From: Maribellus maritimus | GTDB lineage: Bacteria; Bacteroidota; Bacteroidia; Bacteroidales; Prolixibacteraceae | Assembly (NCBI RefSeq): GCF_022267315.1 | Contig: NZ_JAIKLE010000003.1 | Span: 1 to 64,000 of the forward strand | Length of the DNA stretch: 64,000 nt | Direction: 5' to 3' | In this document: positions 9,668 through 20,136 of the stretch, piece by piece | Layout: each line of letters begins with the position of its first letter | Position numbering within the stretch: position 1 is the stretch's first letter | Position numbers and translations under genes: made by a program | Notes under the pieces: generated by a model | Told to the model about the DNA's origin: nothing | The model's input: the letters and a program-made list of their open reading frames with translations, nothing else | The model's database searches: none

Positions 9668-9766
9668 TTTTTCTTATTTTGAGTTTGGTAAAATAATAAT
9701 CTTCAACAATTTCGCCTTTTATTAGTTTTGAAAATATAAGCGTTTTTTTTTTGGGTCTTCCGGTTT

Positions 9767-14775: not shown

Positions 14776-14823
14776 AGCTGCTAAAATAACATTCTCTTAG
14801 GGAAGGTAATTTATTTTTTTTTT

Positions 14824-14831
14824 TAAATTTG
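14824..14831 (+). promoter_or_regulatory. -7 promoter element upstream of the 14870-16875 operon
   Basis: TAAATTTG matches TAnnTTTG exactly. No good TTTG lies at the -33 distance. Predicted start near 14838, about 32 nt before the ATG at 14870. Confidence 0.4.
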
Positions 14832-18406: not shown

Positions 18407-19036
18407 TCACCCGCCAAAATCAAGATTAAACTTTTGCTTTAAAACAGCCAGTTGAGGATTCTTTTTTACCATTTCATCAAATTTTTCCGAATCAGTGTAA
18501 ATAATCCTTCCTTTAATTGTTTCGGTTATTTTTGTAACAAGATGAATATGAGAGTTTTTCAACTCTTTCCTCAACCACGAAACCAATTCGGGTTTTATGC
18601 TGTTAATGAGGTTTTCCTGAACTGTATTTTCTATTTCAAGCAATAACCTGTAGTTTTCCTGAATTTGCGGAAGTCTTGATAATGTAGATTTTAGATTCGG
18701 GCGATCATCAAAACGAGCGGTAAACTGTTCCCATTTTTGTTGTAACGCTTCTTCAGAAAAATATTCTTTTTCATCCGATTGGTTGTAAATCTGGTGTTGT
18801 TCTTTTGCTGAAATCTGGTCTTCTTCAAACTTTCCCTCCAAAGCATCTTTTATTGAAGGAACACCCATACTGCGCGATGCTCTTTTAGCAATTTTACGTG
18901 GCCTTGAATTTAGAGAAGGCTCAGGGCGTTTGGGCATTTGCCTGTCTTCTGATTTTGATACTTCTTGTTTGGAACTTTCTTTTATCTCTGAAAAAATGGG
19001 CTCCAGCATATCATCAGCCTGCGAAGCGTCATTTAT
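18407..19036 (-). CDS. dnaX: DNA polymerase III tau C-terminal part, -1 frame continuation of dnaX
   Basis: A reading frame encoding about 209 residues, open from position 19036 to the stop at 18407. It continues the upstream dnaX frame after a -1 shift at the A10 run. The first ATG inside it is at 19009, which an automatic caller would take as the start of a separate ~200-residue gene. It has the Bacteroidota tau tail: a charged linker, then EEALQQKWEQFTARF (about residue 98 of the part) and the closing VKKNPQLAVLKQKFNLDF. This domain links the clamp loader to polymerase and helicase in tau. Whether it is made by slippage or the break is an assembly error cannot be decided here. Confidence 0.8.
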   Translation of the reverse strand: MNDASQADDMLEPIFSEIKESSKQEVSKSEDRQMPKRPEPSLNSRPRKIAKRASRSMGVPSIKDALEGKFEEDQISAKEQHQIYNQSDEKEYFSEEALQQKWEQFTARFDDRPNLKSTLSRLPQIQENYRLLLEIENTVQENLINSIKPELVSWLRKELKNSHIHLVTKITETIKGRIIYTDSEKFDEMVKKNPQLAVLKQKFNLDFGG

Positions 19037-20136
19037 TTTTTTTTTAAGGAGAGCTGTGCCATCCGAATCAGCGCAAGTTCAACCAACAGTCTTTTATTCT
19101 GACTTAATTTGTATTGCAGGTCACATTCATTGCTTATTTTCAGAGCCTCCAATAAAAAATCCTGAGGGCAACTTTGAGCCTGCCCCTTATATCGCTCTTT
19201 TATTTCGCCACCAACTTCTAAAAGCTGAACGGTTACCGGGTCTTTACAAACCAGCAAATCACGAATATGCCCGCTCAAACCTGTTATAAAATGATGCCCG
19301 TCAAAACCGTGATTTAAAATGTCATTAAATGTCAGCAGCGCTTCCGTTACATCATTTTTCAAAAACTGGTCGATTAAACGGAAATAATAATCGTAATCCA
19401 GTACATTTAAATTTGTGATGACATCCTGGTAGGTAATCTTCTTTCCCGAAAAGCTTACAATCTGGTCAAAAATCGACAATGCATCACGCATGGCTCCATC
19501 GGCTTTCTGAGCAACGATATTCAAACCTTCGCTTTCAACCTCTACACCTTCGCTTTTTGCTACATATTCCAAATGTTCAGCTATATCTTCAACTTTAATT
19601 CTGTTAAAATCAAAGATCTGGCAACGCGATAAAATAGTAGGTATTATTTTATGTTTTTCGGTGGTAGCTAAAACAAAAAGGGCATGTTTGGGCGGTTCTT
19701 CCAGCGTTTTAAGAAAAGCATTAAAGGCCTGTTGTGAAAGCATGTGAACCTCATCGATAATATACACGCTGTATTTTCCCATTTGCGGGGGGACACGAAC
19801 CTGATCGGTAAGATTTCGGATATCATCCACCGAATTATTTGAAGCAGCATCCAACTCATGGATATTAAACGAACGGCTCGAATTAAATGCTTTACACGAT
19901 TCACATTCATTACACGCCTCGTTTTCTGGAGTCAGGTTCGTACAATTTATTGTTTTTGCAAAAATACGTGCACAGGTAGTCTTTCCAACACCACGCGGTC
20001 CGCAAAACAAATAGGCATGTGCCAGTTGTTTGCTTTTAATGGCATTTTTCAGGGTATTGGTAATCGACGATTGAGCAACAACCGTATCAAATGAGTCTGG
20101 CCTGTATTTTCGTGCTGAAACAATAAAATTCTCCAT
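19033..20136 (-). CDS. dnaX: DNA polymerase III subunit gamma (tau after slippage)
   Basis: The AAA+ clamp-loader ATPase. From the ATG at 20136 (MENFIVSARKYRP; a TTG at 20166 is in frame but unlikely) it encodes 367 residues. Walker A GPRGVGKT is at 46-53, the zinc cysteines are C65, C75, C78 and C81, Walker B is DEVH at 128-131, and ATTEKHKI and the arginine finger LSRCQIF follow. The frame ends in LSLKKK then TAA directly after ten A residues. This would be a gamma-type product. Slipping -1 at the run gives a tau product of about 576 residues, near the usual Bacteroidota length. Confidence 0.92.
   Translation of the reverse strand: MENFIVSARKYRPDSFDTVVAQSSITNTLKNAIKSKQLAHAYLFCGPRGVGKTTCARIFAKTINCTNLTPENEACNECESCKAFNSSRSFNIHELDAASNNSVDDIRNLTDQVRVPPQMGKYSVYIIDEVHMLSQQAFNAFLKTLEEPPKHALFVLATTEKHKIIPTILSRCQIFDFNRIKVEDIAEHLEYVAKSEGVEVESEGLNIVAQKADGAMRDALSIFDQIVSFSGKKITYQDVITNLNVLDYDYYFRLIDQFLKNDVTEALLTFNDILNHGFDGHHFITGLSGHIRDLLVCKDPVTVQLLEVGGEIKERYKGQAQSCPQDFLLEALKISNECDLQYKLSQNKRLLVELALIRMAQLSLKKK
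19036..19045 (-). promoter_or_regulatory. A10 slippery run in dnaX: candidate programmed frameshift/slippage site
   Basis: The minus strand reads TCC TTA AAA AAA AAA TAA in the gamma frame. Re-reading the last A gives ATA AAT GAC and enters the tau tail. Adding one A by polymerase stuttering has the same effect. No strong stem-loop follows; the best is a 4-bp GGCT/AGCC pair. There is no Shine-Dalgarno-like sequence upstream, so RNA polymerase slippage, as described for Thermus dnaX, seems more likely than E. coli-type ribosomal shifting. Confidence 0.6.

Follow-up and report, generated by a model that had tools for sequence, protein, structure and literature searches.

A conserved adenine run at the gamma-tau junction of a Bacteroidota dnaX gene, a probable transcriptional slippage site

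The dnaX gene of the window (the whole stretch of 64,000 nucleotides that was analysed) is split by an unbroken run of ten adenines (A10), and the junction is most likely a conserved slippage site that would yield both gamma and tau. Transcriptional slippage on A10 is the best-supported reading and is quite probable; it is favoured because a run length near ten is kept while the phase between head and tail varies, because the other frames close fast, and because no clear stimulator is found. The surprising part for a specialist is that the fork appears to be kept through most of the sampled class, and in other forms in some lineages where the A run is absent. The comparisons tip, by a modest degree, towards lasting selection in the class for making gamma and tau, with lineages that have no run having reinvented the fork through a +1 shift at an AGG-C element (28 genomes), UAG readthrough (six genomes) and T9 slippage (four genomes).

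If this is true, dnaX would gain two routes not described for it before, the +1 shift and readthrough, and bacteria would have in the AGG-C site a counterpart to that of yeast Ty1. The need for gamma would become testable by comparison of lineages, and the dnaX runs would supply a natural set of slippage sites covering all three phases; gene callers may split this replicase gene in two.

Layout of dnaX in the window

On the minus strand, frame 0 of dnaX runs from an ATG at 20136 through 367 codons to a TAA, and the ten bases preceding the TAA are all A (junction letters, CTC TCC TTA AAA AAA AAA TAA ATG AC). Reading on from the A10 run in the -1 frame gives K K K I N D A S ... and 212 open codons up to the stop at 18407, so that one extra A, or two fewer, joins the head and the tau tail into a protein of 576 residues. 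A sequence-only reading of this DNA had described a TAA directly after ten A's and a tau tail that goes on in the -1 frame; the window letters bear this out, and its product sizes (367 and 576 residues), its coordinates and its arithmetic of one more or two fewer A's are correct as well. The features of the locus are given in Table 1.

Table 1. Features of the dnaX locus in the window
Feature	Position	Strand	Remarks
dnaX, whole locus	20136-18407	minus	Head ORF and tau tail
dnaX head = gamma ORF (AAA+ ATPase, lid, domain III)	19033..20136	minus	367 codons and TAA
A10 run, proposed RNA polymerase slippage site	19036..19045	minus	A9-A11 in 113/113 genus and family genes read
TAA closing gamma on ten-A transcripts	19033..19035	minus	Frame 0
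TGA closing the third frame (nine- or twelve-A transcripts)	19029..19031	minus	Non-tau frames 0 and 2 codons long (L001)
tau tail, -1 frame, open from the A10 run to the stop at 18407-18409	18407..19045	minus	Tail matches the end of PRK14971

The head alone scores 746.4 bits against NCBIfam PRK14971 (DnaX), above the curated cut-off of 685, and Pfam also identifies it as DnaX. The tau tail alone matches positions 423-612 of the 614 of PRK14971 (E 1.3e-23); no Pfam family was matched by the tail alone. The fork of E. coli dnaX sits at the end of domain III, as does that of the window.

The letters TAAATGA downstream of the run stop both non-tau frames. The slippery heptamer A_AAA_AAG is absent, since the run is followed by T, leaving A_AAA_AAA only. 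The 60 nt after the run have a folding z of -0.09 and show no clear stem-loop, and no word resembling a Shine-Dalgarno (SD) sequence was found upstream of the run, in agreement with the earlier statement that no strong stem or SD-like stimulator is visible. Two other runs of at least ten A's occur on the minus strand of the window (9743-9752 and 14814-14824), both between long ORFs. As these lie outside long ORFs, and as the dnaX run is present in all 113 of the genes read in the genus and family, the A10 in dnaX is beyond what chance would give.

Conservation of the run and of its frame relations

The site was compared in related genomes. In the family, DnaX was matched in 130 of 140 genomes and the junction was read in 113, with 17 of the 130 left out; the 113 genes comprise 35 of the genus (window included) and 78 from other members of the family. 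All 113 carry an uninterrupted run at the junction, of ten A's in 102, eleven in nine and nine in two, and the head is out of frame with tau in 109 and in frame in four, all of which have A11. The nearest relative (G065), whose DnaX is 99% identical and whose assembly is a single contig, also has A10 (L113); the closest named relative by DnaX is a metagenome-assembled genome of Sunxiuqinia (82% identical), a genus of Prolixibacteraceae, Marinilabiliales, Bacteroidota. With nine to eleven A's at this place in 113 of 113 genes, the A10 split is no sequencing slip. The sequence-only reading had held that relatives with 11 or 8 A's would count against slippage. This expectation fails: four of the 113 have A11 in frame and two have A9, which is what a phase-indifferent slippage site would be expected to give.

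Over all groups, the family included, 272 dnaX loci were anchored by tblastn. Runs of A9-A13 stand at the junction in 235 of the 272, and only four runs of A9 or longer occur elsewhere in the same genes (474.5 kb), in which T9 is not found elsewhere at all. Among the 235 runs, 192 are A10, 21 A11, 19 A9, one A12 and two A13; A8 was found at the junction in none of the 272 loci and in two loci of the order read later (L299, L404). In other orders of the same class, an even sample of the phylum has A9-A11 at the junction in 50 of 52 genomes (52 of 53 were fetched, G317 being left out), and among named loci the run is present in 61 of 80. Within the order of the window its distribution is patchy, with four of the ten other families sampled first having the run. 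Outside the class and within the phylum, seven of 17 loci read have it (162 genomes matched, 17 read, 145 left out). AAA makes up 72% of Lys codons in dnaX heads, so three consecutive AAA codons would not be rare; ten unbroken A's at a single site, and almost nowhere else, still are.

The number of A's needed to connect head and tail is zero in 81 of the 235 run-bearing loci, one in 148 and two in six. A tree of 148 heads requires no fewer than 22 changes of the phase to tau for its 121 run-bearers (mean of 200 shuffles 41, minimum 35). For the 89 heads with exactly A10 it requires 12 (shuffles: mean 31, minimum 23); because phase changes occur among genes with exactly ten A's, miscounted A's cannot explain them. 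The phase to tau thus tracks descent in part, yet is not fixed.

Both non-tau frames are closed within six codons in 75-100% of genes, depending on the group, versus 14% of 4977 control positions in tails. The letters TAGCTGA or TAGTTGA, which halt both non-tau frames at an out-of-frame A10, follow the run in 77 of the 235 run-bearing loci, all groups pooled. Outside the window's family, the frame not required for a -1 ribosomal shift is closed within six codons in 75% of in-frame genes (n = 77; control, 37%) and in 86% of one-A genes (n = 42; control, 41%). No downstream structure follows the run on average (mean z -0.08, n = 120), and SD-like words occur in eight of 120 genes versus 4.9 expected, so that no stimulator stands out. 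Within the family, the 60 nt past the run show slightly more structure than is seen elsewhere in the gene (n = 112, mean z -0.43).

Slippage by RNA polymerase and its alternatives

In the proposed mechanism, RNA polymerase would slip on A10 while copying dnaX and produce mRNAs with mixed A counts. An mRNA with 11 A's, and equally one with 8 or 14, would be translated in the ordinary way into tau, of about 576 residues; on the remaining mRNAs translation would stop within about two codons past the run to give gamma, of about 367 residues. That the polymerase slips, that the transcripts are mixed and that both proteins are made and useful is what we infer from sequence. Transcriptional slippage making gamma and tau had been proposed by the sequence-only reading, and the wider comparison favours it as well.

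The slip could instead lie with the ribosome, through programmed -1 frameshifting or sliding at A_AAA_AAA beside the stop, so that tau would come from a uniform mRNA. The heptamer is present at the site, as it is in every A10, where ribosomes could slip too; tau lies in the -1 frame in the 148 one-A loci, and sliding of ribosomes on poly-A is on record (PMC4363877). A stop within six codons is found in the -1 frame of 99% of the in-frame genes outside the family, versus 75% for the third frame, and this better-kept -1 stop would also be expected of ribosomal shifting, as would the rarity of two-A phases (6/235). Several features do not fit: neither a stem-loop nor an SD-like word is prominent, the third frame is quickly closed as well, and seven A's would be enough for the heptamer, yet all 235 runs have at least nine. 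Six run-bearing genes need +2 or -1 base, outside the reach of a -1 shift, and as described for E. coli, A_AAA_AAA is far less prone to shifting than A_AAA_AAG (PMC5009743). An exclusively ribosomal origin of tau is accordingly unlikely. Ribosomal slippage on the same A run may nevertheless contribute, a share suggested by the slight structure downstream within the family, the better-kept -1 stop of in-frame genes and the scarcity of two-A phases.

Three further explanations have far less in their favour than slippage during transcription. The run might be a contingency (phase-variable) tract, in which replication slippage would give cells with A10, making gamma only, or A11, making full tau; A9 or A11 is indeed found in 11 of the 113 genus and family members, but A10 is dominant in every phase (192/235), and a subunit of the replicase is an improbable gene for on/off switching, which leaves this explanation very improbable. 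That the tau tail is translated separately from an internal start is hardly credible: in the window an in-frame ATG stands at 19009, ten codons down the tail, yet 91 of 108 split genes of the genus and family have no ATG within the first 40 tail codons, and even when GTG and TTG are admitted a start codon is found there in 53 of the 108. An own start for the tail was rejected in the window's family. Sequencing error or a pseudogene has a probability close to nil; the source assembly is in 201 contigs and homopolymers are error-prone, but the identical split and A10 occur in single-contig genomes (for example, G065 and G008), and head and tail are both conserved across the family.

Transcriptional slippage at dnaX also has precedents. 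The sequence-only reading knew of no description of such a site for this group. A split dnaX with ten A's is a kind already described in 2013, with slippage proposed, and the window adds a member: Antonov et al. (2013; PMC3711429) list 17 two-ORF dnaX genes from 12 genera, of which 12 have poly-A and nine have ten A's. The window shares with these genes the two-ORF dnaX, the -1 relation in DNA and the ten A's at the join; it is the free phase and the conservation across the class that come from the present study and are absent from the dnaX section of that paper, whose main text has the word 'Bacteroidetes' once, in a table of scanned genomes. The criterion for transcriptional realignment given there is the occurrence of both shift directions within one gene family (PMC3711429).

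Thermus thermophilus dnaX resembles that of the window in having poly-A, gamma and tau, and near-run stops in the other frames, and differs in having nine A's with tau in the unslipped frame, whereas the window has ten A's with gamma in the unslipped frame (PMC1088944, PMC5009743). The window accordingly shows two features of the Thermus type (at least nine A's in the coding strand and near stops in both non-tau frames) and does not show the third, tau in the unslipped frame, which is found in four of the 113 genus and family genes. E. coli likewise makes gamma and tau from one dnaX gene, by a -1 ribosomal frameshift; unlike E. coli, the window has no A_AAA_AAG, SD-like word or clear stem-loop, and the roles of the frames are reversed (PMC5009743, PMC3711429). 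According to a 2012 review, most bacteria outside the enterobacteria and Thermus lack a dnaX frameshift signature and may make no gamma (PMC3290774). A literature search, to which subscription papers were mostly closed, found no report of a class-wide pattern of dnaX A runs, or of a +1 shift or readthrough in dnaX.

Other junction types in the order

In a sister family of the same order (f2, centred on G019), 38 of 40 genomes were matched and 36 were readable across the junction, the truncated genes of G509 and G516 being left out. Of the 36, three have an in-frame A run, five are fused with neither signal, and 28 are split, lack an A run and continue into tau in the +1 frame (L031, L306, L307, L309-L311, L313, L314, L316, L317, L319-L332, L334, L375, L376, L379). 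L090, being the same gene as L322, was removed from the counts. The dnaX junction of this sister lineage carries the element AGGCAAUC. The block AGGCAAYC is invariant in 28 of 28 split genes, with AGG in frame 0, and is followed by RCRGGAG in 22, RUGAGG in five and RCGAGGC in one. Of the 40 f2 genomes, 21 contain the 15-mer AGGCAATCRCRGGAG, as a single copy in each, on the dnaX contig and just past the head; its reversed control has no match in the 40. Across 247 genomes of the order, AGGCAATCRCRGGAG is found in five, three of them f2 genomes with the match at dnaX and two others in which no dnaX was found at the match, and the reversed control matches once.

These features point to a +1 ribosomal frameshift at the AGG-C element of f2. 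In the five RUGAGG genes a frame-0 UGA stands nine bases past the A of AGG, and in L330 the +1 frame is blocked up to two bases before AGG, so that, if one mechanism serves all, the shift would fall inside the AGGCAAYC block. AGG is otherwise uncommon in f2, making up 19 of the 411 remaining Arg codons in 25 heads, and AGG followed by C occurs in frame four further times in the 28 heads, from which it follows that AGG then C is insufficient by itself. The codon preceding AGG is GUC in 19 genes, GCC in four, GCG in two, GCU in two and UCU in one; as this codon seems to have little chance of +1 re-pairing, skipping of the A of AGG (compare Ty3) is more likely than tRNA slippage. The +1 site of yeast Ty1, CUU_AGG_C, as described in PMC5009743, shares with f2 an AGG in frame with C as the next base (the slow-codon half of the site), a longer +1 product and the uncommonness of AGG; it differs in that CUU precedes AGG, whereas f2 has GUC, GCN or UCU, a longer invariant AGGCAAYC and a location in a bacterial chromosomal gene. 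No conserved structure was found around the f2 element (n = 28; mean z of -0.10 for the 50 nt downstream and 0.05 for those upstream). An ATG stands within the first 40 codons of 12 of the 28 AGG-C tails, which makes rejection of an own start less clear here than in the window's family.

An in-frame UAG follows 366-371 dnaX codons in six genomes of one clade, comprising L112 and five from the G370 family, in which 39 genes were read (the truncated gene of G529 apart); the UAG-type loci are L094 (same genome as L363), L112, L359, L367, L368 and L369. The UAG is followed by AU(U/A)GC(A/U)AG(G/A) and then by a tail in the same frame that is open for 201-254 codons, with an ATG in the first 40 codons in two of the six tails. 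From its sequence this junction is a candidate for programmed readthrough. A profile built on 232 tau tails from genomes with the A run matches each of the 34 tails that belong to the +1 and UAG types and none of 68 readings in the other frames. A hairpin after the UAG is plausible by eye and is not claimed, as 8-88% of the windows taken from the same genes fold at least as stably. Rfam gave a single sub-threshold match across six loci, judged to be chance.

In four further genes of the G370 family (L336-L339), T9 takes the place of the A run at the junction (about codon 361); head and tail are fused in frame, and the other frames stop four and six codons on, so that the site is possibly one of poly-U slippage.

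A tree of 161 heads from the order was built by a quick method, has 60 well-supported forks at most and is enriched for two families picked for missing the run. Its rows divide into 61 with the A run, 28 with AGG-C, seven with UAG (six genomes), four with T9, 57 fused without a visible signal and four short without a signal; the minimum number of changes is three for AGG-C, one for UAG, one for T9 and 23 for the A run. Because 57 of the 161 are fused without a signal, a second dnaX product is not universal in the order. Three of the four short rows stop at or close to a contig end or within a suspect stretch, and the fourth (L357, in G530) is an unexplained remainder, in which dnaX stops after 376 codons and a +1 open frame of 200 codons comes next, with neither an A run nor AGGCAAYC.

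Among the fused genes without the run, L039, L046, L047, L056, L057 and L282 share at their junctions a word of the form GGGC-loop-GCCC (GGGCGUAGCCC, GGGCAUAGCCC, GGGCGCAAGCCC). In several of them the -1 frame contains a UAG there, and the word may simply encode the peptide GRSP. In f2, the tree places the in-frame A10 gene L377 (G491) within a group of AGG-C genes, as though one signal had given way to the other.
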